Positions 200-39,013 of a DNA stretch of 64,000 nt are shown in pieces. The stretch spans positions 4,278,001 through 4,342,000 of the forward strand of contig CM007990.1 of assembly GCA_002189035.1 (NCBI GenBank), written 5' to 3'. The notes under the pieces are model-generated. The model saw only the letters and a list, made by a program, of their open reading frames with translations. It was not told the origin of the DNA and did not search any database. Source of the DNA: Utricularia gibba. Taxonomy: Eukaryota > Streptophyta > Magnoliopsida > Lamiales > Lentibulariaceae. A program made the position numbers and the translations under genes. Every line of letters starts with the position of its first letter. The first letter of the stretch is position 1.

Positions 200-1155
200 A
201 TGGTGGATTCGATGAACTTGCACGTGCAGCATCCGCAGCATCTACCTCAGGTAATCAACTTTCCTCAGGATCATATGTTTGCATCACAGCTGGGTCATAT
301 CATTTATGTTGGACCTCAATCTATTCAGATGAATCCTGGATACGATAATTGGATTCTTCCGCTGGAGTTTCAGAAACCGAACCCTAGCTTTGGGGCTTGG
401 AAGCCGCCGCAAGCTGGGTTGAAAAGGTCAATGGGTCCAAGGGTCAACAGGGACGGCAAGAGGTATAACGGTAAGGGGAGGACGCAGGTTCATAAGTCGC
501 TGAACAGGAAATCTGTTGATTATAATTCTATGTTGGTGAATGATTTGCAGCATCGGGGTGTGCTGAAGCCTAGAAATTTCCTCCCCCGAGCACCAATCCT
601 CGTCGGAAGAGCTTTGGTAACGATAGCGTTGTTCCTTTTGCTCCTAGAAACACCACTTCTTTCTTAATCAGGTCAAAGGGAAGACGCGGGAACGCGCCTT
701 CAGTTACCCCATCTCCACAAACTCCCGCTGTATTTCCAACCCCGAAGTTCTCGCCTTTGCCGGACGCTTTGGTAAACAAGGCAGAGGAAGCGTGGGGCAT
801 TGATGGCTATGGCTCTATGAATGGGCTGATCAGGTTGAAAACACAAGGGCATGAGCCCCCTGTCGAGGTGCAAGTAGACGATGAGGATGTGGGAGAAATG
901 GAGTCAAGCGAAAGTGATGTGGAACAACATGTTGAGATGGAGAAGCGTGTGGATCAGGATCTCAGTAGGTTCGAAATGGTACTCAATCCCACATCGATGA
1001 TCAGAAAAATGGACGACCAAGACACTCATCTGGCTCATCTGCAGGAGGAGAACTCGATTCTGAAGGAAAAGGTGGTAATGATTGAAAGAGAGATGGAAGA
1101 GCTGAGGGCGAAGATGGATCTTTTTGGCACAAAAGAAAACGGACGAGAGCAATGA
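200..1155 (+). CDS. Plant-conserved coiled-coil protein (PRLI-interacting factor A-like), one apparent frameshift
   Basis: A hypothetical plant protein of about 318 residues. It starts at the ATG at 200 (MVDSMNLHVQ); the reading frame is open upstream, but an acceptor-like CAG at 193-195 suggests the exon begins just before. The N-terminal half is basic and Gly/Arg rich. The centre carries PFAPRNTTSFLIRSKG (about 627-675), a block I remember as typical of a land-plant family annotated as PRLI-interacting factor A. The C-terminus has a heptad-like coiled coil (DDQDTHLAHLQEENSILKEK, about 1012-1071). The first part (frame of 200) and the second part (frame of 757) join only if one base is added near 571-577 (AGAAATTT); this looks like a consensus deletion. 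Function is unknown. The family name is from memory and less sure than the gene itself. Confidence 0.68.
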
Positions 1156-1559
1156 AACTCATTGCAGCATCAGATGAATCATTGCACCTTCAGTGGAAGC
1201 AGCAGGTGCATGGAATAGGAACTGGTGATTGGAGTATCATCAGATCGCAACTTCACTACGTTGTCATTAGCCAAGAAAACACCAGCTTTTTTTCCCTTAA
1301 ATTTCTCATGTAACTTAGTATTTATTTCAAGTATTGAAAACTGTACTAAATTGTTCGCCCTCTGTCCCCTTGGTTGTCACGCTGGTTTATAATATGCAAA
1401 TAGTGATTTTTTCCCCGCATAAATTAATATTAAAAATGTATAGAATCCGATGCTCAGTTATTGCAATAATATTATTCTGATACAATGCTAACCAAAATTG
1501 ATATCATCTGTTTGGAATTTCAGTAAAATTTAAAACCATCAAATTCCGATGCGGGAAGT
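1156..1559. other. 3' flank of the coiled-coil gene
   Basis: This stretch holds the probable 3' untranslated region, with T-rich sequence near 1288-1330, and then AT-rich spacer. I see no gene in it. Confidence 0.5.
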
Positions 1560-2330
1560 TGAACGCCGTTATTGGGCCCATTGGGCCTGTGAAAAAACGC
1601 GAGAAAAGATGGGCATGGAGTAGGCCGGCGTGTCGCCTGATGCCCGACTTGTGAAGATTGATTTGCAGGGCTGCTGCTGAATTCTGAGTTGTGAGCGCGA
1701 ACGCTCACCCTAACTGATTCTGACGCCGCTGCTAATGGGGTTTCCGTTTTGTTGTTCATTTTGGGGACCTCGAAACTTGTGTATTCTCTTGATATTAACT
1801 TTTTTCCCGTCTCTAGTATCTACCAGCTTTTGGGTTGGCAGGCAGGTTCTCCTTCTGGGACAATGGAAAAAAGCTTACACCTGTTTATCAATCAATCTCT
1901 CCCCCCCCCGGCCCCCCCTTTTTCCACCAGTAGTGGAATCGGAATCCATCCACCATCAATCTCGCAACTGCACTGTTCTATCTATCCCATCTTTGCAGAT
2001 TAGGAACTGCTGTTCTCGATCCGCGAAGCCCTGCAGCGGAGGAGAGCAATATGCGGGGGACGCTGATATCTCGGCGCGGTGGTCCATGAGTAGTAGAAGA
2101 AGGAAAAAAGAGGAGTGGGGGGGACCGGAAACTAAACTCTGAGGTTAGGTTCCTTGGGGAGAAAGTGAAGGGCTTTTAAAGTCGATAGACATCAAGACAC
2201 AACTGCTACATCGCAGCAGCGCGCCCACTGGGGAAGAAGAGAAGAGAAGAGAAGATGGAGAGGGAGACTCAGACTGCCAGTGGACCCAATCCCATCAACC
2301 CTCAAACTCCCCTTTGACTGTGAAACCTTG
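1560..2330. other. GC-rich island without a recognisable ORF
   Basis: About 770 bases of mixed, gene-like composition between AT-rich flanks. Open frames up to 135 codons exist (1735-2142), but none resembles a family I know and two overlapping frames are equally open. A perfect 7-bp stem with a 4-base loop lies at 1691-1708 (GTGAGCG CGAA CGCTCAC). It could be a first exon and leader of a gene whose body is lost, a non-coding transcript, or a decayed gene. Confidence 0.4.
1573..1587. promoter_or_regulatory. Paired site II (TGGGCC) elements
   Basis: Two TGGGCC-type elements sit back to back at 1573-1587 (TGGGCCCA followed by TTGGGCC). In plants such pairs are TCP-binding site II promoter elements of housekeeping genes. 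They mark the left edge of the GC-rich island that follows. No protein gene I can recognise lies immediately downstream. Confidence 0.55.
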
Positions 2331-5300: not shown

Positions 5301-6649
5301 TTGAATTTCTTAACTATCGCTATTTTATTATTAAATAAAAATTAATTAGGAAAATATATATTTTTTAATTTTTATTTACTTTAAAAATATATTTAATTGA
5401 TTCTATTTTCATAATTTTCATAATTAAAAATACAGTAAATAATTAGAATTCTAAATTGGATTGGGTGATTTAGGCTGCTCCACTTGGCAAAAGTAATCCC
5501 AACCTCACAATCCAAGTCAACCAAAGAGCTTTGATTTCAAGGAATCTATTTATAATTAAAATATTCCCTATTTTTCTCCTCCATTACTAACCATTGGAAA
5601 ATAGACATAGTATCCTTTAGTCATACATCCACATTAAATCATTTTGGATTGAATCGAATTCAATAATTTTTAATTTATTTAAAAAATTGAAAAAATAAAA
5701 AATATTATTTAAACAAATTGAATCTATTTTTAAATTTAATCATGAATTTGATTAGTATCCTCTTGATATTATTCATCGGCCCCTCTTTATTACAATGCGA
5801 AGTGATGCATATTATATATTTTGTAGACCTTGAAAAAATCCCCCCCATGCATTTACAGCGGCCTTTTTACTTTTTACAGCGGATGGGGTTTGTAAAAAGT
5901 CGTTTTTACCGCAGGTCAAAGACGTTTTATTAACCACTTGTACTTATTTCACCTTGGATTTTAACCCGAAGCGGATTCGGTAATCTCGCCGTGGATTGGT
6001 CGTAATTAGGTCAGCAATTAGTTTTAACTTTTTTTTTGGTTTTTTAATTATAAAGAAAAATTTCCACAAACTAAGAAAATTGGTCACTCGTTTGAGTGCA
6101 TAATAAAAGTGGACATCGTATGTTTAAAAAATTGATCTTAACGTATTAGTATACACAATTTAGATTAATGTCACAGGACGTGTTTTATTGTAATTTTGTC
6201 GGGGAAATAATTTATGACGTAATTTTCGTGGTTAAAGAAATATTAAAAATATGCGTGAATTTGAATAAATTAAAAAAAGGGACAGGACGAGGATTTGTTG
6301 AAGGGGAGGGGACAAGATCCCCGCTGAATCCGGAACCTCCAGACCGGGACGGTCTACGTACGGTTTTCTTGTATCTATGTAAAAGAAAATAATTTATTAA
6401 TGTCTATTTTTAATTACTTCACTTATCTTAAATAATTCTGACCACAACACTGTCGCCCGGCCCTTCACATTTTCTGGGAGCACGTGCGTGCCAGATCTCT
6501 CAGTAATACATGTTTTTTTCAATAGAAAAAAAATAAAAATTAACATATTAAATCATGATTTAAAACTATGAAATGGGAGTATTTGGAGGCTTAAGTATGT
6601 GATTAATTATGTAAGAGATGTATTATTTGGATAGAAATAAATTTTATTT
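2331..6649. other. AT-rich intergenic DNA
   Basis: Over 4 kb of strongly AT-rich spacer with no supported gene. It includes a short CAGCT tandem run (about 3314-3333), a GC-richer patch at 3180-3480, and a hairpin at 5869-5900. Open frames here are short and unrelated to known proteins. Old transposon debris is likely, but I can define no element. Confidence 0.6.
5869..5900. repeat. Perfect 10-bp inverted repeat
   Basis: ACTTTTTACA at 5869-5878 and TGTAAAAAGT at 5891-5900 are perfect reverse complements around a 12-base loop. The words ACAGCGG and TTTTTAC recur around the hairpin. It may be the end of a small inverted-repeat element. Confidence 0.55.
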
Positions 6650-6652
6650 TTT

Positions 6653-10133: not shown

Positions 10134-10358
10134 TATGGGCATGTTGCTGCCTGGTTCAAGTCTCACACAAAACTCTTTCAAACTATCTGCTATGCTTCAC
10201 ATGTTGTTGATTTACCTTCGTAATGGCATCTTGCGTTGAAATATTAGTGACATGGTGCAGTTCAAGCGCCATGAAACCATCGTCTTATCAGTATACATAT
10301 GTTCCTCGACAGGATTGTGTAAAGAACCAACATCAAAGTTCAAATTCATTCTCAGGCT

Positions 10359-11804: not shown

Positions 11805-12051
11805 TTCCTCACCCACCTTTTCGTTACCTCAGTTTCGACAAGTCTCTCAAAGGCGGATTTTCATCGAACACCTCCGCTTTAAACCCTTCGGAGGAATCCT
11901 TCCAATCCATTATCGTCTAAACCCTACAAAAATGTAAAACCACTGGTATTAATTAATGACTACTTTATTATATAAAAATAGCGACAGAAGCCTCATTAAA
12001 AAAAAGAAAAGAAAATCAATTGTACTTCTTCGGAAGCAGTGGTTGATTTCA

Positions 12052-16474: not shown

Positions 16475-18294
16475 TCAAGCCGCCTGAAAATCTCCAAAGT
16501 CATCATCAGCTGGATCTGCATCTTTGTTTGTAGGCAGTTCTGATTCCCTCAGTTGAAGGCTTTCCAAGTGAGATTCTGGCGTTCCGGGGTGTTTTTCACG
16601 TCCGAATGAGGGGTTTTCAGCAGTTACAACAGGTGATGGTGGTGCTGGAGGAGCAGGGAGTTTTAATCCGACTGCAGTTTCTTTGCCTTTCCCTTTTACA
16701 TCTACTGAAAGTTCTGGCTCAAAAACTTGGACCTACTGGTTCCGGATGTTTTCTGGCCAGCCCAGCAACCGAAGAAATTCTACTCAGGTTTCCACCATAG
16801 TTGTGTTAACTAGGTATAAAGGAGCAGGCGATCTTACATTCTTGAGCTGAAGCACCAGTGTCTCCCCATCTTTCAAACTGTAATCAACTGAAGAAGTGTG
16901 CTGGTAGTGCTGTTCCATTTCCTCAGCAGCTTTCTTCTTATGCAGATACCTTCATTTTGAAGCCCAAGGATCATCATAAATGAGCACAAGAACACAAGCA
17001 AAGGGACGAGGTAACAGACTTCATGTGATCATGGAGGGCAGCTTGAAAATCGTATGCTTCAGGTCTCTCTCGAAATCCAATACCAATGAAAGCATGCCGA
17101 GGACGGCCATCTGTATGACAAGAAATAAGTTTTACCATTGGAGTTCTATTCATCTTTAGCTGTGCAAGAAGGCCGTTCCCAGTCCATCCTCTGCTCGGCA
17201 TGTCAACCCACTCTTGCCGCAGAAGCAGTTCGAGCAGTTAGACACAGCTGAGGGTTCAGGACAGTCACAGCAACAGAGTTCTGTCTAACTTGAAACAGCT
17301 CATGCAAATGAATGATGATGCCAAGGGTTCTTAACATAGAAGACTGGCATTTATCTAATCTCTCAGATGCAATGTCTTACCAATATTTTCTTCGACGCGA
17401 AGTACAAAGTATCTGCGAAGCACCAACAGAAAACTTAGCAAGGCCACCTTCATGGAGAACTCTAACTGACATGGGGAAAAGGTAAGATGAACTTCCCAAT
17501 TTCCCTACCTGCTGCTATCAATCACTGGCTCCACAGGATGGGGCTCCCCTTCCCTCAGAAATGCCTGTGCATACAATTCGCCTGTTCGATTCCACAAGTT
17601 AGATACCAACGATGATCAGGATAAGTGCATTTCAATCAGAATGAGTATACAATCACCACCAGAAGTTTTGTCTTCTAATCGAATAATGCATTCTACTCCT
17701 TTGCTGACTACTTTAAGGGTTCCTTCCCATGCCCATTTGTTAACATTCCATTCATCAGCTCTGCAGAAAGAGGAAAAGGGTCCTCATGTACCCATCCATG
17801 AGGCAAAGCAGGTGAACAGATACCAAAGATACTGAATTCATGAAGCCACTTCACAACATGCATCTTAGGAGTCAACTGAAGCATATTTCTCATGAAAAAA
17901 AACCTGTAAGAAGCTGCTGTTTTCCTTGGAGGTATCTGCAAGGTTAATAATCAAAGTATTAGTATTTTCCTCTCTTCACTATGCATTTTTGCAGAATCCA
18001 AGACCAAACTAAGATCAACAGCCATGGTGGTTTCAGCAGAAAGGTCCCCTTCTTAATGGGCACTTCAAGCAGTAAAAGGGTATCCACAGAAAAACACACA
18101 AGGATCAAGAACTCTCAATGAACTCCTTTGCCAGTAAATTGTAATCCAAAGCAGGAAACGCATGGAAGACAGCATAAGGGGCAGGTGAGAAAATATACCA
18201 GGTACACATAGCATTCGGAAACTTGAAACAAAACCAATTCAATTTCTTCCCTTTCTTCTTCCTCCAGTTCTCCCCTTCTGTGCTGCTGCTCCAT
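16475..18294 (-). CDS. NECAP-like protein (adaptin ear-binding coat-associated), one apparent frameshift
   Basis: An endocytic accessory protein acting with AP-2 and clathrin at the plasma membrane. Eight exons on the minus strand: 18199-18294, 17904-17935, 17660-17760, 17509-17581, 17381-17412, 17020-17110, 16838-16949, 16475-16752. The N-terminal PH-like NECAP domain is complete (IELVLFQVSECYVYL, IPPRKTAASYRADEW, YFVLRVEENIDG, HAFIGIGFRERPEAYDFQAA). It ends with the acidic DDDFGDFQAA motif typical of At3g58600-type proteins, with a Pro-rich linker before it. In the last exon the frame is restored only by one more A in the A5 run at 16721-16725; with that base the length is 271 residues. It is head-to-head with BAC1. 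Confidence 0.87.
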
Positions 18295-20720: not shown

Positions 20721-21122
20721 TCAGCATGGTGCATAAAGTTGTTGCCTCTGGCATAACTTTTGGTTCGAGATTCTTCGACTTGATTCGGATCGACGAGGTC
20801 TTGCAGCATCTTAAGGTCTGGCCATTTTGGTTGCGTCATCATGCTCAGTTTTTCCAGGTTTTTGAGAGTACTACATTACACCGTCTGTGGTGTCATCCAA
20901 TTCATTACTTTCCTCATTCAAAATGTCATCAGCTACTGCATATACATTTCAAAGCTATTTTTGAGAGAAACTGAAAATAGTGCAAGAAATTTCAAGTTAT
21001 AAGTGGCGTTTATCGCCAGCTGTTTAACAAAAACTGTGATGCAGGATGAGTAGTTAGCTACTCTGACTATGTAAAAGAGCAAAACAGTTGCATAATCAAG
21101 AATGAGTAACCTGGGGCTACTA
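20721..21122. other. Convergent 3' regions
   Basis: This holds the 3' untranslated regions of BAC1 (plus strand) and the dihydrouridine synthase (minus strand). No further gene is seen. Confidence 0.6.
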
Positions 21123-23156
21123 TTAGCCATTCTCTGCTTTGTCGTAGGCGTTTGACTTGTGCTTGGGAGAGAATGTGAAACCGGCAGGTACCTTTCCCAG
21201 CAACATTTCAGATATGCGAACCCAATCAGCAGCCGAATCAGAAGCCATCATGGTCTCAAGATCATTGCGGCCAAAGTAAGAGGGTGGTCTCCAGTTTATC
21301 CGTTGGGGGATTACATCTAAAAGACCAACAGGTATATACCTGCAACTGTAACTCAGCCATTCCAGAAGAAAATGTCTCGTGGTTTCCACGCCCTTCGAGT
21401 CTGAGCCCCAATGCTCGAGGCCAAAACGAACATAATCCTTCAGAATGTCGAGCCTTTCTCCTGAGCTGATGTCCCAGTGCCTCTGTTCCTTGATTTCGGT
21501 GAATATCCAGGGCTTGATCAACGCCCCCGGGCAATCATGCATGTAGAGAGCTCAGGGCAATTGGCCTTGTGACGATTCCAGTCATCATAAGAGAAAACGT
21601 CACCATTGCCTAGGACTTGCAGTGTCTTGGGAGCGGCTCGTGCACATTGGTAAATGTAGTCCCAATCAGCTAGTTTACTGTACCTTTGTTGCCTTGTGCG
21701 TCCATGAACTGTTACTGCACTGGCTCCCCAATCTCCAATGTCTTGTATCAACGTGTCTATCCGGTTCTTCCCTTCAAAATAACCTGTTCGAACTTTGATG
21801 GTCACGGGTGTGTTGATAGCTCTGGAGCAAGCCTCTACGACACCTTTCATTCTCATTGGCTTGGTTAGCAAAGCAGAGCCAGCACCCTTGTTGACCACAA
21901 TATCTATTGGGCATCCCATATTGATATCAATGAAGTCAACCGTGCATTCCTGCTCAACAAGTTCAACAGTTTTTGCAACTGTATCTGGATATGCCCCGCA
22001 GATCTGTACACCAAAGAGATCTTCTGATGAGTGCCGCCTCAGAAGAGCCCACTCTGAGGCCTGACCTGTAGCAAATTGGTACACATTGCCATCTCACCGC
22101 ATGTCACATCAGCTCCAAGCACCTTGCAGATCCTCCTGAAAGGTAGGTTCCCAACTGTCGTCAAGGGAGCTAGATAAAGCTTTTCACTGAAATCAATGAG
22201 CTTCTTTTCACGTTGGTGTAACTTCAGGGATTTATCATTGTCATACATGGCGTGCTCATGATCAGGAATGCTACTGCGCTCATTCTGAGGATTTTCATCA
22301 TCATTCGAAGGCAGAATACAGGCTTCATCACTTGAGCACTTTGTTTTCTTTGGTGGTGGTCTAAGTTCATTGTCCATGCCGTCGCCATCCGCTGTCTCGG
22401 TATGACCAGAGGAATCCAATGCATCCTTTGAGTCATTTGCATCTCTTAAACAACCATTGACAACATCATCTCCAGAGCCATCCGTGATTTTCATCTTGTT
22501 CAGAAGCCCAAGGACCTTGAGTGACGCATTTGCCTTAGGAAACTTCATTTTGTTTTTCCACAGAAGTTTTTGCACATCCTTCTTCAACACATTCATCTCA
22601 CTCTCTCTCTTCCCGCCATTAACCATTTCACTGGATAACTGTCCACCATCAGCCTTGTGCGTACCAGCGAATCTACAGGCTAAGCCAAACGGGCAGGGTC
22701 CTAGGACAGCCAAGAAGGGGCATAAACCGTCTAAATCTTCTGGTTTATGAGCCTTGAAGGCCTCCACATCATGACTAAAGCGGCAGTTCGCCCCATAAAC
22801 ACAGGAACTGGCATCCCACTTTTCGCAACTTCGGCGCATAAATGCAACGGAGACTTCAGTTCCTGGCGTCGCTCACGCTTCAGCTGACGTTTCGATTTCT
22901 TCTCCCTGAGAACTGAAGAACCTGATCCAGCAGCATTACCCTCTCCCTCTCTTCCGTCAGCCTCATCCACTGTCTTCTTATTACAGTCCCTGGTGGGAGG
23001 CGGACAGAGGAACTCCCTCTTCACAGGCGCTATCGATTTCGCCACAAGCTCCTCCAGCGACGGTGAACCCTCAACCGGAGTCACATCTGTCTCTATACTC
23101 CCCACAGTATCCGAACGGTCCATCGAACTCCTCGAACTTCCCCAAAACCGACCCAA
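21123..23156 (-). CDS. tRNA-dihydrouridine(47) synthase (DUS3-like), three apparent frameshifts
   Basis: A flavoenzyme reducing uridine 47 of tRNA to dihydrouridine. A single open block of about 678 codons once three one-base gaps are allowed. N-terminal part: two CCCH zinc fingers ([11 protein letters not shown] and CPFGLACRF), which are typical of eukaryotic DUS3. C-terminal part: the Dus TIM barrel ([35 protein letters not shown] with the catalytic Cys, [35 protein letters not shown]). The breaks lie at T4 22820-22823, C2 22065-22066 and C5 21524-21528, each repaired by one added base. The start may be 23156 (MGRFWGSS) or the next Met at 23123. Three clean one-base breaks in strongly conserved sequence point to consensus error, not decay. 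Confidence 0.9.
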
Positions 23157-24316
23157 TCCAAATCAAACCAACATCGATCGAAAACAAAGCATACAGAATC
23201 AACCGCACAACGAACAAAATCAAACCAGGATCACAATACGATGAAGAGCAATCTGCAATTACCAGTAACCAACTGCAAGCACGCCGGCGGCCAAACGAAC
23301 CTTCCGCGTGAGTTGCGGATGACCTGGTAGAGCGCGGCACACGAGCAGGCTTGGGCCGGCTCAATATGTTTCCGACATTCCAATTAATTACAGTTTATTC
23401 TTCAATGGGTCAACGAGCAGCCGCCCCGCCCCGGACGGGCTCATCCCAGCCCAGCCCAAAGTCTAGAAATATAACAGTTCAATTTCTAGTTATAGGATAT
23501 TATCTATTTTGATTATTTAATTCATACGATTTTATATTCTCTTCTTTCAAAAAAAAAAAACTCAAATAAGATTAAGAAAAACACCTCCATATAAAATGTA
23601 ATTTTATTCATTCATAACCAATATGAGATTCATCTAAAATCCTTACAATCTTACTTGAATCAGTCAATTAAAATTATTTGAATTTTCATCTGATCATAAC
23701 ATATATATTTATACGGACAGCATTTTTTTTCTAAATATAGATTTATTTATAATTGATGTTTGTCGGTTCCCTTCCCACGGTGTGCAGCCCGCCATTCTGA
23801 AACAAAAAGGTCTATGTGTCCACGGAGAAGGGATAAGGTAGAAAGGGAGAGTATTTCTCCACGTAGAGAAAAGCAGTTACAGCCATAAGCATGGTTAGTG
23901 CTTCCAGAATCATCAAACAGCCTCGTCTCTTTATATCCACCAATCAAATACCTCCGCCTTATCCATCAAACACAGCCAGCAATCAACTTCTACAACTGGA
24001 TAAGTATTTTGAGCGTATCAAATTGTATTTTGATTTCTCTTTAAATTATATAAAAATATACAAGTTTTATTTTTTCTTTAAAAGTAAAAAAATTGTAAAA
24101 TAATGTTCCTCCTTTGGTTCCGATCACCGATTGCTCATTAGTATTACGTTGATGCCACAAATCACTATTGAGTATAGAGCTTCACCTTCTAATAAATTTG
24201 TGAATATTATTGTGTGAAATAATAAATAAATACAACGCGTGCATTTCCAGGTATAATAAATAAGGGTTTATGCAAAATTAATTACCGAACCGTTTTTATT
24301 TATGGAAGATGAAAGC

Positions 24317-24845
24317 ATATTAAAAATAGATAATGACCAGACACAGTTGGGTTTAAGAGGATAATGATCGTTATTTTTTTCCATTAAAAAGGGAAAGAAA
24401 ACTACATAATGACAACACAATTGGGTTCTTTCAGTCCGTGTAGAGTTGCGACTTGTTCTGTTTCGGTTCAAAATTGAATGATCGGTTCATAAACTGCTAT
24501 TCGTTGTCAACTTTGATTCCATTTTTTATTTGAAAACGAATTTTTAAATCTTGAATCAAACCGAAACTGGAACTGAATTGCATGATTTCATTCAAAACTA
24601 GAACGGAAAATGTTGAATGGTTTTGGAATCCAATAACAAATGTTAAAAATATCTATAAACAATTCTGAAAAATATATCATTCTTTTAAATGTTTTTTCAA
24701 GTTCTCAAATTGAATTTATGAAATATGAAAGGTTATTAAAAGTATATAATGAGGACACAATTGATGTAGGAGGATAATTATTCCATTAAAAAGGGAAAGA
24801 AAACTACATTATGACAATACACTTGGGTTCTTTGGGTCCATGTGT
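24317..24845 (+). repeat. Diverged direct repeat, about 115-125 bp units
   Basis: Unit 1 spans about 24317-24441 and unit 2 about 24733-24845. They share CCATTAAAAAGGGAAAGAAA, then ACTACAT-ATGACAA and TTGGGTTCTTT. Spacing is about 415 bases. Confidence 0.75.
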
Positions 24846-26089
24846 ATGTATGCATACCTACTCCTACTCAGCATGTTGGTGGCAATATCCACGTGTCATC
24901 TCTACCCTTATCCAACACGCGCAAGCCGCCTTCTCAGACCATGCCCACATGTGCCATTCTTGGCTGCCTCAGAGCCAAACCCACGTCCCACAAGTTCAAG
25001 TGCAACAATATAAAGGGAAACCCTCACATTTCTATGCCTAATAAGCAACATTGTCGATATGGTATACATAAGTTTATAGTTTTATAATATAAAAAGATAA
25101 TAATATTCCTTCAATAATATTACATACTTAAAATTATTTTTTAAAAAAACTATTCAAACATTACTTATTTTTAACTATTTAAAAAATCATGTAGCACATA
25201 GTTATTTTAATAATATCACGTATAAATTCAATTATAAAACTATATATCCAACACGTGAGAAATAATCAATATTTTAGATAGCATTATCTACAAAATATTC
25301 AATTTTTTCAAATCATTTATTTTGTTATAAATTAACGCATTCACATTCAGTAGTATACAAAATTAAACCATTCTATCAAATGAACTCTAAGCAAAAAGAA
25401 TGGCATATGGCATTGTCCAAACACTTCCGCCACGGCACGTTTTATAAGTAAAAAAAAAAAAAAAATCTGCCGGGCACATTATAGTTCCATTATTAATGTT
25501 CATGCACATCGGAATGATTATTATCATAGATAAAGCTGGGGGAGCTACAGTGGCATTGAGACATTTGAACTACCACGTGGCAAGTACATGTATGTTATCG
25601 GGGCATATTCGGGTCGCCCACCCACCCTAATCAATAATACCGACTCCGCGACAAACCCGCGAACTTCGCGCCGCGTAAATAATTTCCCTCGGTGGGCTCC
25701 ACCGCCTGCGGATAGACGTAATCCACGTGGCGGGGTGACGTGCCATCCTGTCCAGTAATGATAATTCGTCACATGGGACCTGCCGGTTTATTTTGAAAGT
25801 TACCCACTCTACATTTTTATCACACTAAACACAAAAAAATGCACGTAACTTGGGTATTTTTCTAAACAAAGTAAAACACAGTGGGTATTTTTCAAATTAA
25901 CTCGGGACCTGCCCGGGGAAATGAGTTAAATACCTGAACTTTTTTATTTTATTTGTCATTTAACCTAGTTATAGCAAAGATTTGTAAATTACCAAAAAAA
26001 TAAGTTGTTCTTTGGGTTTTACCCTACTTTATGCTTTTTTTGTTTTTGAATGTTTTTTTTTTGGATTTCTAATTTAGGGGTTCAATTTT

Positions 26090-26400
26090 AAAGTTTAATA
26101 TTTAATATTTATAATTTAGAAATATTATATATTAAGTTTTCATAATTTTATGATTACTGATTTAGAGTTTAGGGTTTAAGATTTCATAATTTTTTAAGAT
26201 TACTGATTTAGGGTTTAAGATTTTAATTGGGATTTAATTTTTTTGGTTTCAGATTTAAATTTTTGAGTTGAAGGTTTAGATTTTAGAACTTGATATTTAG
26301 TTTTTGATTTAAGATTTACGGGTTTAAGATTTGAAATTTAAGTTTTAGATTTTAAGTTTAGATTTTAGGGTTTATATTATGATATTTTTAAATTTCAGAT
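26090..26400 (+). repeat. Degenerate TTTAGGG-like tract
   Basis: The tract is rich in variants of GATTTAGGGTTTAAGATTT. A unit of about 45 bases beginning GATTACTGATTTAG is repeated at about 26152 and 26200. It resembles decayed interstitial telomeric sequence, or simply A/T-rich drift with TTTAGGG words. Confidence 0.5.
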
Positions 26401-27322
26401 TTAGTATTATGATTTGAATAAAAATTAAGTTTTATGTGTTTTTATTTTTTATAATTTAATTTATAAATTAAATCTTAATATAAGGTATTTTACAAATGGT
26501 AGACGAACATAAGGTAATTTTCAAAGAAAAATTGAAAATAGGGTAAAATGCAAATATAATGGACCTGACAAAGGTAAAACGTCGAGGGAGCCGGACCTGC
26601 CCACCTGGACACCTCATATGATTCACGACTGACTCGGAAAATCCAAATCTCCAACTCCAACTCTTTTTTCTAAACTTGAACCGGATCTACCAGTTTTCTA
26701 ATCTTATGTTTAATTATTATGTAACTCAATTATATAAAATGTTTAATATACGAGAATACAAATTCACGTATATAAATAATATAGATGTAATTAATTCATC
26801 TCTTAATTTGTGTATATCAATTATGTACTTAAAAAATATGTATATTTAAATAGTATAGTATTTTATACTATACTATCAAAGACTTTCTTAGTGTCATGCT
26901 TATGGGTATCTGCTAATCATGTTGATAATTTCACAATGTAATTAAATTATATCGATAGCTTAGCTTATTATAGAGTTTTAATACGGGATTATGGAAAATT
27001 AAGCATGAACATTAAAATATTGTATGAGTGGTGGACCTGTGGCAGCTGTATTACTTTATTGGAATAAAAGTAATTAACGTTTGTTACTAATTTTATATAA
27101 TAAAACTTAATAATTATTGAGTGGAAATGTGTGGAATATTCAATTGGTAAATCTGGGGGTTTTTGGATAGGGGAGGAGCGAGAATATGCGGGCATATCCA
27201 CCGCTCGCTGGGTAGACCTGCCGATGACGTGGATCCTGGTTGTCCGGGCACGCCGGTTCGGACCGGACATCCAATGAATACGGATATTCTGGGGGTGACT
27301 CGCGGGCCCCACTCGCTGCGCG

Positions 27323-27329
27323 TATAAAA
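27323..27329 (+). promoter_or_regulatory. TATA box of the DUF506 gene
   Basis: TATAAAA in a GC-rich context (GCGCGTATAAAATGG), 81 bases before the ATG. Confidence 0.65.
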
Positions 27330-27409
27330 TGGTACGAGCGCTCACAATTATTTCTCTGCGCAGCATTCGGTGTTTTTTTCTTTTCGAGGAGGAATAATTG
27401 GAATTTGGA

Positions 27410-28647
27410 ATGCGGAAACAGGGGCCTGGAGTTCCAACGAAACATCGCCGGATGCTGTTGTGGGACAGCCGTGCGCCGGAGGTTGACGGAGAGCCGGTCA
27501 TCAATTTGTCGGATGACACCGTTTTTGAGTTCCTGTGTGGAGAATTCTACGATTCGTCGCCGTTGAGCGGGGATGGCGGTGACCGAGGCCTTGGTGAGGA
27601 GCTGGAAACTGAGAACGAGGATGGGAATCAGGATGCCGAAGGCGATGATTTCTGGCAAACGCAGCATAACTTGTTACAGGTAGGGTTCCTGAGATTTCGC
27701 GATTCCCCAATTTTTTGGGCGGATTTCATGTTTTCCCTATTCTCTTTTTTGAACTCGGAGAATGTTTTGGTTGATTCGAGATTTTTCCTAATGTTTCATG
27801 CAGTCGACGATATGCAGAACGACGTCGTTGGAGACACGGATTCGAAAAATTACCAACCAAGCTGTAGAGGAAGCACGCGAATCATGTGGCTGCTGCACCG
27901 CTCCTCCCACCGGCGCTTGCCGGAAATGCCTCATGAAAGACGTTTGCTGGCGACTTCGAAATGCTGGTTTCGATAGTGCGATTTGCAAGTCCAAGTGGAT
28001 AAGCTCACCAGAAATTCCCTCAGGTTGGTTGGTTCATCCATTTCTTCACTTGAAACTCTTCCACTCACTCATTTCATCTGCCCTCTACTGGTATACATGA
28101 ATGAATTCCCATCTTTCAAACATATCCCGCTGCTTGTTTGATAGCTTTCTGTGACTCAAAGCTCTAAATTTCTACAAACCGTGATCATGTTCACTAAATG
28201 GAGACGATGACTGTCGCAGGGCAACACACATTTCTGGATGTAGTAGACAACTCGAACCCGAAAAAGGGGCAAGTCCGGGTCGTCATCGAGTTCAATTTCC
28301 AGGCCGAATTCGAAATCGCCCGGTCCAACGACGATTACAAGAAGCTGGTGCAGAGACTTCCCGATACATTCGTCGGGAAAATCGAAAGGCTGCTGGGAGT
28401 GCTGAAGATAATGAGCACCGCCGCAAAAAAGTGCATGAAGGATAGCAAAATGCACATGGGGCCGTGGAGAAAACACCGGTACATGCAGGCAAAATGGATG
28501 AAAACTTGCGACAGGCCATCCAATTCACCCAACTCCTTCAATTATCAGATTTCTGTTCCACCCGGAAGACCCAGAATGTCAATGCTTACTCTGGATCTGA
28601 ACGAGAGTTTGGCCAGTTTGCGTAGGCCTGCGGTGCAGGTCGTCTGA
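27410..28647 (+). CDS. DUF506 (PDDEXK-like) family protein
   Basis: A plant-specific family with a predicted PDDEXK nuclease-like fold and mostly unknown function; some members act in root-hair growth and calcium signalling. Three exons: 27410-27679, 27804-28023, 28220-28647, giving 305 residues with all phases agreeing. Visible family marks are VFEFLCGEFYD near the start, a Cys cluster (SCGCCTAPPTGACRKCLMKD), DAVIC-like GFDSAICKSKW, the core FLDVVDNSNPKKGQVRVVIE with EFEIARSNDDY, LPDTFVG, and the closing AAKKCMKDSKMHMGPWRKHR-YMQAKW. The start at 27410 follows a TATA box by about 80 bases. The frame is intact. Closest by memory to At3g22970/At2g38820. Confidence 0.9.
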
Positions 28648-29595
28648 GGAAGAAGAAGAAGTTTTTCAATCCTGACCATGAGTGAGTCGGCGACACACAT
28701 ATATGTACCTAGCGGCTGTTTTTGGCTTCCTCGGAAAATCTACCAACTGCCGCATTCTTTCAGAGCGTCAAGATCCTGAAACCTCTGATCGGCCCTAACT
28801 AGAGAGCTGGCAATGGCATCGTTCCTTTGTTTTTTTTCTTTTTTTTTTTCATATGCCGGAATAAATCAAGAGCGTTATTTATAAGATTCACATGCCGGAT
28901 AAGTTTATGATTTATCTTTGTTTATAATTTAAATTGATATAAATAATTATATAATATCTACAGCGATGTTTATCTGTATGTATATTTTTTTATCAAATAT
29001 GAGAATATTTTAAATATATATGTGTAAAATTTATATATCAAATATAATTTCAATTATAACTATATAATAATGTCTTTTGGAAGGGTGAAATACAGGTCAT
29101 CATCTTGAATGGCAATCTGGCACAGGGTGTTCCAAGTCTGGTTCGTTAACAGGAATGCGACTGAGGGGGAAAGAAGTATTTTTTTAGGAGATATTTTAAC
29201 GTAGATTTATTTCTGATGCATAGTCTTGTGATTCATTATACATACTTGTGGTGTTACTGTCCAGTCGCTTGATGACCTTAAAACGACATCGATGTCACCT
29301 GAGCTCTCCATTTCCTTCACCGGTCGCCGGTCTCTGTCGCCCAGTTAAGATCGGATCACACATGAAATAAAGTACAAAAGAAACATGAATTTCATCATAA
29401 AATATTAGACCTAATGAATTACTTAATGATTTAAAATATTTTACATAATTAACTATTTAAAATTTTATATTTTACAAAATTTAAATTTATAATATTTTTA
29501 TTATAGATGAAAAGTAAACAAAACTATTTCAAGTCAAAATGTTGTTACTCCAAAGATGTGCATGGAATCACTGGCCGGCCGGGTTAGTGATACGT
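28648..29595. other. Intergenic spacer
   Basis: It holds the DUF506 3' region (a T-rich run near 28830-28850) and AT-rich DNA. I see no gene. Confidence 0.6.
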
Positions 29596-29623
29596 GGGCC
29601 TATTGTGTATGGGTAATAGGCCC
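29596..29623. promoter_or_regulatory. Palindromic pair of site II elements
   Basis: GGGCCTATT (29596-29604) and AATAGGCCC (29615-29623) form a perfect 9-bp inverted repeat with a 10-base gap. Each arm includes a GGCCTA/TAGGCC site II-like core. It lies about 200 bases before the next start codon and is probably its promoter. Confidence 0.65.
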
Positions 29624-29827
29624 ATTATTAGTAGCAATGAAAGCCCAAAATCCCCAACCGCGTGATTTTTTAAAAAACCGGCGTCTCCACTCTCAGACCG
29701 TTGCTGAAAACCCCTGCTGTATTTCGATGGTCGCGGAGTGGTGCTATTTGACGATTGATTTTGCTCTGGAGGTGTATTGAATTGTGATGGTTGAATGCAG
29801 TTTGGGGACATTAGTGTGCGTTAAAAG

Positions 29828-30671
29828 ATGGGGAACGCAGTGGGATCGTTATTCTCTGGAATTGGGCAAGTTGTTGATAAGATCCTGGGTCATCCATTGG
29901 ACTTTCTCTCTGGAAAAGCTTGCGAGTAAGTTTTTCGCGTTTTTGTTTTAGATTCGCTTCAATTTTGATGAAATGCGCTTTTTTTTGCAGTTCAGCATGC
30001 CGCCCTACGTGGGATCTCGTGTGTTACATAGAGAATTTCTGCGTATCCCATTTGCTCAAGTTAGCGTTGGTTGCAATTTTGGTCTACTTTGGTATTGATC
30101 GATAAGTCTCTGTGTGTGTGTATGTGTTTTTTTTTTTTTTTTTTTTTTCTGTATGTATTCAGATTGTCCATTGCTTAATCCTTTCACTTGATTTGCAGTC
30201 CTCTTGTTCTTGTATCTGGTGTACAAACTGGGAATCTGCCAATGCACTTGTCACATAATCTGCAGAACTCTATGGGGGTGTTGTCGTGCCTACATTTATG
30301 CAATAAACTGTTGTTGCTCCTTCTTATGCCTCAAGCTTCGAAGCGTAAAGCACTCGAGGCCGAGGAGAAGAAGGGATCCCGAGGAATGCTTTACAGAAAG
30401 TGAAGAAGAGAATGAAGCTTCCGGTTTCAGTAGAAATGCCAGGCGAAGAATCAGAAGAGATCACAGAAGAAGGCATATAAGGAAGTCATTGAGACCTATG
30501 GGGCATCGAGTAGGGGTGGAGATATCAGGCAACTTGAAACGCAAAAAGTTTGATTCTTGCATCGATGAAAATCGCACAAGCCCACTTCAACATCATATTC
30601 GAGTCACTAGAAGCTCAAGATTCTCTATCAAAGGCTCGCATCGCAGGAAGAGGAAGCATGATCTGAGGTAA
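29828..30671 (+). CDS. Cys-rich plant membrane protein of unknown function
   Basis: Three exons: 29828-29925, 29991-30091 and 30199-30671, giving 223 residues. I recall similar uncharacterised plant proteins but cannot name one. The N-terminus MGNAVGSLFSGIG is a candidate N-myristoylation site. Conserved-looking motifs CRPTWDLVCYIENFC follow, then a hydrophobic helix (about residues 52-75, LLKLALVAILVYFVLLFLYL). A cytoplasmic-side segment of residues 80-110 contains ten cysteines (CQCTC, CC, CCC). The C-terminal 110 residues are Arg/Lys/Ser rich and look disordered. The Cys cluster could be palmitoylated or bind metal; both are inference. Intron 2 carries a TG and poly-T run at 30112-30150. 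It is tail-to-tail with the phosphatase gene, 134 bases apart. Confidence 0.78.
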
Positions 30672-30805
30672 AGTACCCTTGAACCATCAAGTTTGTATCC
30701 AAAGCAGAAGGAAAATATACCTGTGAGTCTTCTAATGCGTTGCATTGGTCTTCTTTACATGATAACGCCTAACAATATGTATACATTGTGATGAACTTTT
30801 GTGTC

Positions 30806-32318
30806 TCAGTAGTCGTACAAGTGATCAGTATGCATATGAGAGGTCATGTTGAGATTCTGAAGCATTGTTTCCCCTCTTTCGTTGAAGCTAAAAACAGTCA
30901 GCCCACCATTGTTTATGTCGAATGCACGAAACCTGCAGAACAAACAAGAACATAGTATCGAATCGCAATTTCGAATGGAATGACTTATACCAAGCATACC
31001 TGTTAGGACCTAATCCGAGAGCTGTGCATACCAGAGCCCTCAAGATTGATTTATGTGTGACAACGAGGAAGTTTTCTCCCTGCTCATACCAGCAGCAGCC
31101 ATGAACACCTAGAAGAAGTATGGGGATGTGGACTGTAAGTATAACAAGGGCTCACCGGAGTAAACAAGATCTCAAGCCAAGCTTCACGAGCAGTCCTCCA
31201 CAGTTCTCGAATCGGGTAAACGCCATTGACATGGAAGTTCGAAGGATCTTCTCTCCAATTAGTGAACTCATCCGGATACATTCTTTTGGCATCCACTGTC
31301 TCCAAAGACTAAATGTGACTTGCAATGTGGTAGATCACCAAATAAAAGGCAGTTGCTCATTATTCTCATTAGTTTGATCTCTGGGGTGTTCCCAAACAAC
31401 TTTCAGACACCAAACCAGACGAACTTTTGCTGACAACGAAGATGTAACTACTGAAAGTGAAGCTGGTGAAGGAAACACTGACCATTTTTCATGCCTTCAA
31501 GGAAGTATAAGTGAGCTTCTTTCAGGGAGTCAAGAAAAACCATTGGCTGCTCCCTTCCTTCCCACACAATCTCAGCAGTCGTCTTCAAAGTTGAAAGCAT
31601 ACCTAATGAGTTAGCAGTTGAAATAGAGACAAGGCCATCAGAGTCAGAGTTGCATTGTGGCGAACCTTGGCACGTGATATTGGGCTTGAAAAACAGCAGT
31701 CGAAGTGCATGCTCGATAAGGCCACCCTGCACCTCTTAGCTTGTGCAACACCAGCTTCTGTTAGGATCGACATGTTGGAGCTCCCCTGTCAAGAGTAACA
31801 GAACACTTCTAAATTTCTTTACACGGTAAGAGGCAAGGTACATAGAACACAAAGATGGGGAACACAGTGGAAGAGATATGATTTTCAGGAAACCTGAATT
31901 CTGCTTTCTTTATTCCAGGAGCTAAGACCATGGCGCAGGAGGGTTATCTTCTTGGATGATGACAACAACTTCCCAGAAACCAAACTACTTGCTGGTCCTT
32001 CCAATTCAAGCGCTCGACCATTCCATGACCCATCGTTTCCAAGAATCTCTGCGCCAGTTACTCACTCATGATCAGCAAGAATCTCAGCAGATCATCAAAC
32101 TTCTATGATTTCGCAAATCGATTCAGGAACCCACAAATCCTCTACCCAATACCCATTCAACATCCGAAAATGAAAGAGCAAAATGGAGCGCAAATACCAG
32201 TAGTGATCGAATCCGGGGAACCAGATGACGAACACGTGACAATCCTGGAAGCTTTCCGAGTATCAGCAATGAGGGGCTTGAGGAAGTTAAGGGGATTGAT
32301 AACCAGAGCGCAACTCAT
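30806..32318 (-). CDS. Histidine phosphatase (phosphoglycerate mutase-like), At1g58280 type
   Basis: A member of the RHG histidine phosphatase superfamily, probably plastid-targeted. Seven exons on the minus strand: 32198-32318, 31894-32048, 31666-31785, 31483-31582, 31156-31295, 31000-31079, 30806-30932, giving 280 residues with consistent phases. The first exon (MSCALVINPLNFLKPLIADT) reads as a transit peptide. The catalytic motif is LLRHGLSSWN (RHG at 79-81). Further marks are FSSPISRAKTTAEIVW, the LDSLKEAHLYFLEGMKN block, ELWRTAREAW, NFLVVTHKSILRALVCTALG with the second catalytic His, and the ending LNMTSHMHTDHLY. The layout matches my memory of At1g58280 closely. The substrate is unknown. 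The frame is intact. Confidence 0.9.
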
Positions 32319-32571
32319 TGCAGAACTTATGGGTTTTCTACCTAACGATCAGTTCAGAGCTGCGAACTCCAAAGCTACGGGAGAGCAGCAGAATTAGCAG
32401 AGAAGATCTTTTGGGGGGCCTTGATTTTTCTATGACTCATATTCCATTTGTTTTCTCTCACCTTTTTTTGAGGCTTGAATTATCCATCTAGAAGAAACGA
32501 AAAAAAAATTCAATCTTTGTCATAAATGAAACACACACTAGAAACAGAGTGTCTTATTACACCAACTTCGT

Positions 32572-34766
32572 CTACTCAGACAAGGTAGGGAGCAGCTCGC
32601 CGGAGTTGCTAAGCTCCAACACAATGTCACACCCACCGACCAACTCCCCTTGTAGTACAACTGCGGGTAAGTTGGCCAGTTGGAGAACTTCTTGAGCCCT
32701 GCCTCACCTCCTCATCACTCAAAATGTCGAAGGAACCGAATTCCAGGCCTACGGATTTGAGCGCATTCACCACCTTTGAGCTGAACCCACATCTCGGAGA
32801 ATCTGGGGAACCCTTCATGAAAAGCATAATGGGATGGCTTCCTATCACGCGCTTCAACCGGTCTTCGAGTGTCGTCTCCTCGGGGTTGATGATTCCTTTT
32901 TCCAGTAGGACCTTCTTCAGTTCTCCGCTCTTTTGCATCTCCAAAACAATATCTGATCCACCAATTAACTCGCCCCTTATGTAAAGCTGAGGGTAACTTG
33001 ACCAGTTTGAATATACCTTCAGACCTTGACGGACTTCATCATCAGTAAGAATGTTGAAGCTTTCAAACTTGATATTCTCCTGTCTGAGTATATCAACCAC
33101 TTTGCGGCTATAACCACAGCGAGGTTCATCTGGTTCACCCTTCATAAACAGAATAACTGGAGCTGAATTTATTAACCCACCCAACCTTTCACTTAAAGCA
33201 GCACTCAGGCCTGAGGCTACAAACACCCCACCCTTCCCGCCGTCAGTGTTGGTGGTTATTTTCTGATCAGAGTCAGCTATTTCCACACCATAATCTCTAA
33301 AAACCTGTTGGAGTTCTCCACTTTCATGCATTGCAATTGCAATGTCACAGCCACCCAGGAGCTCTCCCTTGCAGTAGAGTTGAGGAAATGTTGGCCAGTT
33401 CGAAAATACTTTCAGCCCCTCTCGGACTGCATTGTCAGTAAAAATATCAAAGCTTCCAAATTTAACCTTTTCCTTCCTGAGGATATCCACCACTTTCTGA
33501 CTAAACCCACACTGAGGTGACTCTGGACTCCCCTTCATGAAGAGCATCACTGGCTGTGAATTAATAAGCTGCTGAAGTTTCGTTTTCAGTTTTTCTCCTA
33601 TGCCAGAATCTGGCTGGCCACCATTTGAGGATTTTTCATTTTCCTTAGAAAGCTCTTTCACAGTTTCAAGAACAGTGGGCCCAGCAGCCATTCCAAGGCT
33701 AGCTGGAGCAGCAGGTTTGCCGCGACTGACTGCTTCAGCCACTTTGGCGACCTTGTTTGCTAAACTGGATGGATCGGCACCTTCTAACTTGTCCACCAAT
33801 TTTCCGCCCTAGAAGAAATTAAAGCACACAACACTTACACATCAGAGTTGTATGTCTGCACAGTCACTATTTAAGTATATAGCCCATTTGATAACTGAAA
33901 AGCAATTTTCTTATAGTGAACTTTCTGACGCCCGAATGGACTGCACTCTAGCTATTCACAATGAACAATCGACTTTGCAATTTCGTGAAGTATACAAAAT
34001 GTGAAGTGTGATTGAACTATTGCATAGATATCGTCTGCAGCTTGAAAATCCGAATGCAGAAGAGACGAAAAGACTAACTTATTTACCTTGAAGAAAACAA
34101 AAAATGGCACAGCAGATACTGAGTATTTCTCAGAAATCTCGGGTTGTTCCTCAGCTTCAACCTACAAATCATTAAAGAGCATCAGAAAGTTAAAGAATTT
34201 TTTTTTAAAAAAAGAGGCATAAGGAAAAGTTAACAATAGCAACTTAAACTGAAAATGGTGCACTTGTGTTTCATTTCCCTTCCAAGTACTTATCCTCATT
34301 CATCCAGATTTCTAACTTGCCACTCGAATAATATCAAGAAAACAGAAGTTAAAATGAACTACCAATAACGACGATTTAAAGATACAGCAATCACGCACAA
34401 CAATATTCACATAAACAACTGTTCACCAAAACTGAAATATACCACCTTTAAAGGAGAATGAACAAAAAGAGCAGGTTTGGCACCTTTCCGAAGCAACCAA
34501 GAGTTCATGAAAACGAATGAAAAATATAGATTTCAGGAACTCGATACGCGGTATGAAAGATAAAAATCAATCTAAAAGCTTATTACCCTGAGGAACCGAA
34601 CGAGAGGAAAATCGGTGGCAAGTTGGGAGAACACTTGATCCATGTGCTTGGAGGCCTCGCACCAAGAAGCCCAAAAGTGTAAAGCCAAAGGAGCACCTTC
34701 TCCGATGATGGCCTTGAGTTCTTCCGCCGATCTTACATCCTTCAAAGTTCCTCCGGTCGCCGCCAT
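32572..34766 (-). CDS. GRXS17: Monothiol glutaredoxin S17, two apparent frameshifts
   Basis: A cytosolic/nuclear multidomain glutaredoxin that binds Fe-S clusters and acts in redox signalling and thermotolerance. Three exons on the minus strand: 34587-34766, 34087-34161, 32572-33808; about 497 residues after repair (Arabidopsis 488). An N-terminal thioredoxin-like domain (HFWASWCEASKHMDQVFSQL) is followed by three monothiol Grx domains with active sites CGFS (about 185), CGYS (about 316) and CGFS (about 425). The middle site has Tyr where CGFS is usual. The start MAATGGTLKDV has a strong ACCATGG context. Near the 3' end two one-base gaps (CCC 32697-32699 and CCCC 32646-32649) break the frame; adding one base each restores [20 protein letters not shown] and the normal end. 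Confidence 0.94.
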
Positions 34767-35190
34767 GGTTCTCTTCTCCGGCACGAATCAGCAGAACGGT
34801 CTCTCGGTAATAGCAACCAGCGAAGCCCTAATTCAACATATATCTCTTCGGAGACGAAGGTATGTTGTCTAATTATAATTTTTTTAAATTACCATAAATT
34901 TCAATCTTTTTAAACTAAAATTAAAGATTCAAATTTCGAAATCAATTTAAAAAATAATCAATTTTTTCAAATTTCTATTTTTTAATTAAATAAAAAAATA
35001 GATTAAAAAACACACAAATTCAAATGTCTTTAATCGAAAATTAGTTTTTTTAGTTTTTTGTTGCTGACGTGAATTCCATGCATATTAAAAAATCATTATA
35101 AAAACGAGCCAATACTCACAAAGCACAAAGAGTTGTAGCGACGTTTCCCCAATTTCAAAATAATTCGCGCGCAAAACCCAGATTTCTGCA
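34767..35190. promoter_or_regulatory. Head-to-head intergenic region, GRXS17 / ASY4
   Basis: There are 424 bases between divergent start codons, AT-rich in the middle. It must hold both promoters. Confidence 0.55.
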
Positions 35191-36833
35191 ATGTCGGCGA
35201 CGAAAGCGAACTTGAAGCGAGCATCGGAAACGGAACGCTTGAAAACGGACCGGAAAAAGATGCTTACTATCGACGATGATTTCGATTCTCTCATCTCCAA
35301 GTAAGTTTTCCGTCAGCGATCTCCTGTCCCCTGGCGATTCATGCACCTGTTTGTTGTTTTCACTTACGGATGATCTATTCTTGTTCGGATGCAGTGATAT
35401 TAAAGGAATCATGAGCGCTCTTCAGCAGATCAAGGAGAAGGCGCAAAAAGATGGCCAGGAAAAGAACGAACAGACAATCTCCAGGTGATAACTCTATTGG
35501 ATTTTCAAGTCTACCTGATTCCTTCTTCGGCTTCTGTTCATTCTTAGCTCGATGCATTCGTTGCAACCAATGATAGTTTTAAGGTCGATCCATGTCTCTG
35601 AGTTTGGCAAATCTTCCGACAGTGCTATCTTCAAACACAGATTATATGATTGAATGTGTTTCGGCATTAAATGGCTATCCATTAATTTGAATTCCTTGAA
35701 GCTTTTTATGGATCACAGAATGAACCCACTTCTGTTACAGTACCTGAGAAATGTGTTTCCGCCTAAAATATTCAAGTTGCTGCTTCCACAGTGTGGCATC
35801 AGATATCAAATCAAACTTGGATGAATTGAAAACTAAGCTTGAGAAAGATAGGTGAGATTACGATCCTCAATTTAGCTTATTGCTAATATTTCACACGCCA
35901 TTCCACCATACCTTCTTGCGTATCCATTGTTTCATTTGGCAGGCAAAGCTTTGCGAAGGGACTAATAAAGAGCTCTAAAGAGGTCTCTACATTTTTCGTC
36001 TTAGATGATACATTGGTGGACTCCTTTTTAGTTTCTGAATGCTGATCATTAATTAGAGCAGTGTGAACATTTACTCAAGTGTGAGTTTTCCAAGTTCCAA
36101 CAACTCCATGAGAAATTTGCTAAGGAGAAAGCCGTGCATCTGCAGGCTGTGAAAGGTCATTCATTCTCACTTTCTGTCACTGAATGTGGAATACATTTTC
36201 TTTGTATCTCTACTTTTTATTCTCATAAATATCCTTCCTGAGTCATGGCAGTTGATTGTCCATACTCTCTCTTCAGCCTTCTCCTCATGCTCCCATTTAT
36301 CCAAATTGCTTTATTTCTCAGATGTTGTAGCAAAGTATGAAGAAGAGAAAGAGAGGTTATTTGTGCGCTACGAGCAACTGAGTGAGCATTGGCAGCAGCT
36401 TTCTTATATGTGAATCCACATTGTGGGGATACTCTTAAGATTTGGTAACTTCTACCAGGAAGGAAAGAAAAGAGTATGCTGACTGAACATGAGAAGCAAA
36501 CTGCCGCCAAAATATCTCAACTGGAGGAGTCTCTTAAGAAGAAAAAGCAGGTAAAATATCCACTCTCATTGCATTCTTCCTTGGCACACCTTTCGCCCCA
36601 AGTCAGCTTCGCATCATGCTGCCAATTAGGCTTGCTGCTACATCTTTTCTGCTTCATGTCCCTAAAGCACATGATGTGGTTGGTATACTTAATTGCATCT
36701 GTTCTTTGGCTGCGCTTGAACTCCCCCTTCGACGTTGCAGGATGACAAAACATTCAGCATCCTAAGAAAAACATTAGGATCCTTTCTCGGGGACGCATCA
36801 GATGAGGACTTTCCTCTGGAGGACGATCACTGA
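35191..36833 (+). CDS. ASY4: Meiotic chromosome axis coiled-coil protein (ASY4-like)
   Basis: A small coiled-coil protein resembling the C-terminal coil of ASY3, a component of the meiotic axis needed for normal synapsis and crossover. Eight exons: 35191-35300, 35395-35484, 35792-35851, 35943-35982, 36062-36155, 36322-36381, 36459-36550, 36741-36833, giving 212 residues, the length I recall for Arabidopsis ASY4 (At2g33793). The protein is charged and coiled throughout (IMSALQQIKEKAQKDGQEKN, LEKDRQSFAKGLIKSSKEC, KYEEEKERLFVRYEQL, ISQLEESLKKKKQ) and ends in a conserved block (TFSILRKTLGSFLGDASDED). Flanking genes are also neighbours in Arabidopsis, which supports the name. The frame is intact. 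Confidence 0.85.
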
Positions 36834-37667
36834 TGCATTTTCGTAGCCTTTTCTATTGAGGTTTGGAAACCTTTATAATGGGTGCAGCTGCATGCCGTTT
36901 TAGATGCTCAAAATGCTCTGTTTCATTTGCCATTTTATTGAAAACGATGTATATGAATGATCCATTCCTCATACAACTAGGAACTTATTGTTCAATATCA
37001 TTCTATATGGTTTTATCTAGAGAGTGACAATTTTATTGTATGAATTAGTTTATTAGTATATTTGTTTGCGTCTTCCAATGTGCGTAGATTAAGAATTACA
37101 TTTATTTGATAAACATGTTTTTCGATGCATATATAATTTATAATATATGTATATAATTTCTTCAATTATATTTTTCAAAACTCTTTGTATATGAATTTTT
37201 TTAATTGACCGATTTTTGTTATTTATTTATTTATTTTAAATGTCTATATATTATATTATACATTCATAAAATATATGTATTAAATATATTTTCATTTTTA
37301 ATCACTTTGATGTATGTTTATTAAATTAAAAATAATTAAAGTACATTATTCATTAAATTATCCTACCCAACATTCTTTTAATGGCACAATGTTAACTAAG
37401 TCCAAATTACAACGACCGTTAAACCGTACACTAAACATTACCACAATTTACCCACGTTAACAGTAAAAGGAGATAAGGTAAAAAAACGTTTTGCCTTAAC
37501 AACTTGTCGAAATTAGTACTCTGACTCCAACAAAAAAGAAGCAACAATTTGAATTACCGTAATTCTGCTTTCATCCTTCCAGAAATTGGCCCAAACCACC
37601 GCAGTGAAAAACACTCTTTAAGGTAAATTTCCTAAACCTTTTTACCGGCACCTCTGACTTCCCATAG
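36834..37667. other. Intergenic spacer
   Basis: It holds the ASY4 3' region followed by AT-rich DNA, then the beta-expansin promoter. No gene is seen. Confidence 0.6.
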
Positions 37668-37674
37668 TATAAAA
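37668..37674 (+). promoter_or_regulatory. TATA box of the beta-expansin gene
   Basis: TATAAAA lies only 17 bases upstream of the first in-frame ATG (37691). A usual 25-35 base spacing would place the transcript start after that ATG, which favours the second ATG at 37733. Confidence 0.6.
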
Positions 37675-37690
37675 CCACCATGCATCCACC

Positions 37691-39013
37691 ATGGCTGCAA
37701 ACACTCAGCATTTCTTCATCAGTATCTCCCTAATGGCTTCTTCCTGTACAAAGTCCCTGTCTCTGGTGTTAACTGCAGTCGCCCTCCTGATCACCCAATC
37801 CTCCGCTTCCTCCCCCATCGCCACCTGGTACGGCGATCCCGAAGGCGCCGGCAGCGTAGGTACGGAAGCATGGACATGCATGCGTTCCAACTCCTCTGCG
37901 TTTGACCGATCACCATCATCCTCTCCATGGTTTTGCAGGCGGGGCTTGCGGGTTCGGAGGGGACGTGGAGAAGCCGCCGTACTACAGCATGGTGACCGCC
38001 GGCGGGAGCTCGTTGTTCCGGGGAGGGAGCGAGTGCGGTGCTTGCTATCAAGTACGTGTGTTGCATACTGTCGGACTTTACTATTTTTTTAATATAATTT
38101 TTGAGGGGCTGTGGTTGTAGGTGAGATGCACGGAGCATCCATCGTGCTCGGGTAAGCCGGTTACCGTGACCATCACCGACTCCTGCCCCGGCTGCGACGG
38201 CGACGTTCACTTCGACTTGAGCGGCAAAGCCTTCGGCGCCTTAGCGAAGCCCGGCCAAGCCGCCGCCCTTCGATCCGCCGGAAGGATCAACGTCCAATTC
38301 CAAAGGTATCATCAAGTTTTAAAATGCAAGTTCCATTTGCATTTTTATATTAATTTTTAATAGCAAAAAATAATTTTTGGATCCTGTTTTTCATTATGTT
38401 TTTATCAAAAATAATTTTACACAGAATACTTCCTATTTTTATTTCTATTTTTTCTAAAAAAAATTTAGGATATAGTTAAAAATGAACCAAACTAGAAATA
38501 AAAAAAATAACTAATTCTATTTTTTGTTATCAAATTTCTATTTTTACTTTTTCAAAAAATTTCTACTTCTATTTTTTATTTTTTAAAAGTAAAAATAATA
38601 TTCAAAAATTTTCAGATAACAAATTAATATTGAAAACTTATTTTTTGTTTCTATAATAATTTTAAACATATTTATGAATAAATGGACAGGGTAGCGTGCC
38701 ATTACAACCACGTGGGCCTGGCGTTCAAGGTGGATCCAGGATCCAACCCCAACTATCTTGCCTTTTCGATCGAGAACATCAACGGCGACGGCGACCTCGG
38801 CCGCGTGGAGGTGCTGCCGTCGGGGTGGTCGTCGTGGGCGCCCATGCAGCGCTCCTGGGCCTCACATGGGACGCCCAGCTCCCCACCGGAACCAAAGGCC
38901 CCTTCTCCGTACGAGTGACGACCCTGGAGTCCCGGCGATCGGTGGTGGCGTGGAGCGTCATCCCCTACAACTGGGCTCCCGGCCGGACATACTACTCCGG
39001 CGTAAACTTTTAA
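37691..39013 (+). CDS. Beta-expansin, one apparent frameshift
   Basis: A secreted cell-wall loosening protein. Four exons: 37691-37859, 37939-38051, 38121-38305, 38690-39013; up to 263 residues from the first ATG, or 249 from the in-frame ATG at 37733 ([19 protein letters not shown]), which begins a classic signal peptide. The mature protein starts near [15 protein letters not shown]. The DPBB domain shows GGACGFGG, the conserved Cys residues, TITDSCPGC and the HFDLSG motif, and the CBM63 domain follows ([20 protein letters not shown], ending [11 protein letters not shown]). Frame is lost after APMQRSW; one more G in the GGG at 38857-38859 restores [19 protein letters not shown]. Introns sit at family positions. 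Confidence 0.92.

Follow-up and report, generated by a model that had tools for sequence, protein, structure and literature searches.

Residual consensus errors of a long-read assembly as the probable cause of eight one-base frame breaks in Utricularia gibba genes

One-base frame breaks in the window

The 64,000-nucleotide stretch of Utricularia gibba DNA analysed here (the window; bases 4278001-4342000 of the 6.19-Mb contig C2) holds several genes that appear to be broken by a single missing base, raising the question of whether they are broken in the plant or only in its published sequence. Recognizing that the initial annotation had listed nine such losses, we examined translations in every frame at the nine sites and measured the spacing between the conserved anchors flanking each, with frame loss defined as anchor spacing modulo 3 on the coding strand; in addition, read-through proteins carrying a single X at the junction were compared with Pfam, solved structures and known proteins. 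At eight of the nine sites the coding strand lacked one base modulo 3, the direction being constant on both strands of the window. The anchors flanking these eight lay 2 to 20 bases apart, and each possible interval contained a G/C run of 2-5. Five genes are affected, namely the first gene (~571), the BOU-type carrier and the beta-expansin (one break each), the GRXS17-like gene (two) and the DUS3-like gene (three), as follows:

574-597, plus strand: frame break 1, one base short between anchors, in an uncharacterised plant gene at about 200-1155
16733-16837, minus strand: predicted GT-AG intron of 105 nt in a NECAP-like (DUF1681) gene, frame kept open
19960-19976, plus strand: frame break 2, placed by anchors, in a BOU-type mitochondrial carrier gene at about 18676-20720
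21126-23123, minus strand: DUS3-like tRNA-dihydrouridine synthase gene with three frame breaks
21522-21528, minus strand: frame break 3, coding-strand G5 run in the DUS3-like gene, with the read-through aligning to Dus enzymes across the site
22065-22068, minus strand: frame break 4, coding-strand G2 run in the DUS3-like gene, with the Dus domain unbroken over the site
22813-22820, minus strand: frame break 5, coding-strand G3 run at the first CCCH zinc finger (zf-CCCH_DUS3L) of the DUS3-like gene
32540-34766 (limits approximate), minus strand: GRXS17-like monothiol glutaredoxin gene with two frame breaks
32644-32649, minus strand: frame break 6, coding-strand G4 run in the GRXS17-like gene, placed by anchors
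32694-32699, minus strand: frame break 7, coding-strand G3 run in the GRXS17-like gene, placed by anchors
38856-38866, plus strand: frame break 8, G3 run in a beta-expansin C-terminal domain, placed by anchors

The ninth site, 16721-16725, has another explanation. The acceptor ...ACCAGTAG, paired with the donor at 16837, yields a 105-nt intron and the open frame QLKN|VQVFEPELSVDVKGKGKETAVG, and with this intron the NECAP-like frame meets no further interruption over the remainder of the gene; the exons before the intron match DUF1681 in Pfam. As the 105-nt intron keeps the frame, a missing base at 16721-16725 is unneeded, and we surmise that the site is an ordinary GT-AG intron with no assembly error. 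An earlier reading, with the exon placed after ...GAGTAG, would have called for a 58-nt intron plus an error. The annotation's claim of one-base losses, as judged by anchor spacing and translations, was accordingly retained for eight sites and given up for this one; its claim of conserved flanking protein was borne out at the eight by anchors and by Pfam or structure matches. Its siting of the breaks in homopolymers also stood, with G/C runs in the possible intervals of all eight, except that at two sites the position is ambiguous and a G/C run is the better assignment: break 1 can be placed in the C5 run at 583-587 as readily as at 571-577, and break 5 in the coding-strand G3 run at 22815-22817 as readily as in the T4 run at 22820-22823. 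The possible interval of break 2 takes in a C3 run.

When read through, the DUS3 protein matched Dus enzymes over two junctions with no gap, and the GRXS17 protein aligned ungapped with human GLRX3 (2YAN) at 1e-35, both junctions lying within the match. The carrier protein displayed three Mito_carr repeats in Pfam. The expansin halves, singly devoid of a Pfam match, gave Expansin_C at 2e-18 when joined with one X, and the joined protein aligned with maize EXPB1 (2HCZ) apart from a single-residue gap where the halves meet. The first gene has paralogs in the genome, and the one on contig C317 is open in one frame over the homologous stretch. Besides the frame breaks, no in-frame stop or other lesion was seen in either the DUS3 or the GRXS17 read-through protein, and a genome search, which may miss weak matches, found no second copy of either gene. 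Elsewhere in the window, a PPR ORF of 489 aa was checked and is intact. The same holds for CHX, as the annotation had stated; a split of this gene into two ORFs was rejected, with one intron joining them and the domains complete. The stretch at 25915-26595 is a dispersed repeat with about ten genomic copies elsewhere at 89-96 percent identity.

GRAS genes and twice-assembled loci

As a genome-wide control we chose the GRAS family, because its domain is mostly intron-free and a frame break is then easy to see. A GRAS profile built from intact matches was aligned to DNA with shifts of one or two bases allowed, in a set of 38 genes (41.6 kb) from which three probable intron carriers (L063, L065, L067) and one gene on a duplicate contig (L013) were excluded. 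This frameshift-aware alignment found 15 of the 38 genes broken, with 22 events: 19 of -1, one of +2 (the same frame change as -1), two of -2 and none of +1. A G/C run of at least 4 lay near 55 percent of the events vs. 8 percent of random coding positions (permutation p about 5e-5). Among G/C runs, about 1 percent had an event at length 3, 4 percent at length 4, 7 percent at length 5 and 44 percent at length 6, and of the 264 A/T runs of at least 4 in the control none had one; events were assigned to the longest nearby run, a rule that favours long runs but gave A/T runs the same chance of being chosen. Within the window, A/T runs are both commoner and longer than G/C runs. Three GRAS genes on three contigs (L028, L029, L064) break at the same C-run encoding Gly-Gly-Pro-Pro, and two more (L027, L030) break within a few codons of it; this C-run in paralogous genes is a motif-driven hot spot of error. 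HSP70 was dropped as a rate control, given that its conserved breaks near profile positions 213 and 421 span 40-75 nt and probably represent introns.

Loci assembled twice bear on the type of error. Between contig C422 and the end of C414 there were no substitutions and four gaps in 1151 bp (three of one base, one of five), and in all four the bases are missing from C414, the carrier of a broken GRAS copy, the C422 duplicate being intact. C316 and C412, compared over 3.7 kb, are separated by a single substitution and by three one-base gaps, all of these gaps in G/C. Alleles would differ mainly by substitutions, and both pairs therefore show error. They prove the type of error and not the window's own sites, because the duplicates compared are small contigs or the end of one, and coverage there may fall below that of the window; a genome search for a second assembled copy of window 16500-17100 and 19900-39500 found none. 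The near-identical pair C241 and C304, with 5 substitutions in 3.4 kb, may represent alleles. Both contigs carry an HSP70 gene (L053, L054) with its break at one and the same G5 run. This is the single case that could reflect a real mutation, shared by the two, although a systematic error could recur just as well.

Origin of the breaks

The analysed assembly comprises 100.09 Mb in 516 contigs, the biggest seen being 8.5 Mb. A U. gibba assembly of 581 contigs (N50 3.4 Mb) has been described as assembled by HGAP, with Quiver polishing as the last step, from PacBio data at 88-fold coverage (review, PMC5793159), and since size and contiguity fit, we infer that ours is this PacBio-only, Quiver-polished HGAP assembly (516 contigs here vs. 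581 described). Single-base deletions in homopolymers are a known feature of PacBio consensus, as exemplified by Enterococcus faecium ATCC 700221, where Illumina reads revealed 561 deletions (PMC4888979). In the window, the eight breaks are very probably errors left in the consensus of an assembly built from long reads only, in which G or C runs would have been called one base too short in the consensus and then left without short-read correction. We favour this reading because 1) the sign of the change is constant; 2) the breaks lie at G/C runs; 3) other damage is absent; 4) the pattern recurs genome-wide in GRAS; and 5) duplicate contigs display it. The annotation's proposal of uncorrected assembly error thus gained support for eight sites, mainly from the GRAS control, the run-length trend and the duplicate contigs. 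Most likely, the plant's own genes are intact and only the published sequence is broken, the eight bases being presumed present in the living plant.

Could the breaks nevertheless be real and recent loss-of-function mutations, with the genes now pseudogenes? U. gibba is known for gene loss, real indels likewise prefer deletions and homopolymer runs, and the HSP70 G5 break is present on two contigs. Because of this shared preference, the annotation went too far in excluding pseudogenes by sign and homopolymers alone, and it is the added controls that carry the argument. Eight breaks in five genes are accompanied by no in-frame stop or other lesion that we could see, and the genome search found no other DUS3 or GRXS17 copy that could act as an intact paralog and cover the function. 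In addition, 15 of 38 GRAS genes (40 percent of an unrelated family) would have to be dead too, mostly via the one-base class; A/T runs are spared, though replication slippage should favour them; and the double-assembled loci differ almost solely by missing bases. We consider pseudogenes a very improbable explanation. Real deletions could also arise from a lineage-specific bias toward one-base deletion in G/C runs, which would leave a large fraction of the conserved genes freshly broken or rescued post-transcription; we give this version hardly any credence. Equally slight are the prospects of misread splice sites, a reading that holds for 16721-16725, where the 105-nt intron restores the frame; at the other eight, an intron would not fit between anchors so closely spaced and homologs continue across the sites. 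Programmed frameshifting, with the ribosome correcting the frame, would account for the identical direction of correction at all eight but is the least credible of all, as these unrelated housekeeping genes have no slippery motif in common and arbitrary G/C runs show the same pattern genome-wide.

Consequences for use of the assembly

Consensus error, as opposed to any of these alternatives, places the finding in a known class of artefact and not in biology; as biology it is ordinary, and its value is that of a warning on assembly quality. The likeness to the E. faecium PacBio consensus (PMC4888979) extends to the loss of single bases in homopolymers, high contiguity and fragmented genes, but the present case concerns a plant genome with errors strongly confined to G/C runs, and their density, about 0.5 per kb in GRAS coding sequence, is greater than the 561 in roughly 3 Mb of that bacterium. 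Kastor (PMC12007338) treats gene-fragmenting errors of long-read assemblies and similarly deals with indel errors resembling pseudogenes; it is directed at small genomes by comparison with a reference, whereas we draw our evidence from within a single assembly. Should the GRAS rate apply generally, a false frameshift would be expected in about four in ten genes with ~1 kb of coding sequence; at such a frequency, claims of gene loss, pseudogenes or truncated proteins that are based on this assembly have to be backed by transcripts or short reads. In one published case, that of the truncated U. gibba DCL3, the check was made by RNA-seq and 5' RACE (PMC8333044). Small contigs of the assembly also repeat parts of large ones (C422 and the C414 end, C316 and C412, C241 and C304), a redundancy that can inflate gene counts.
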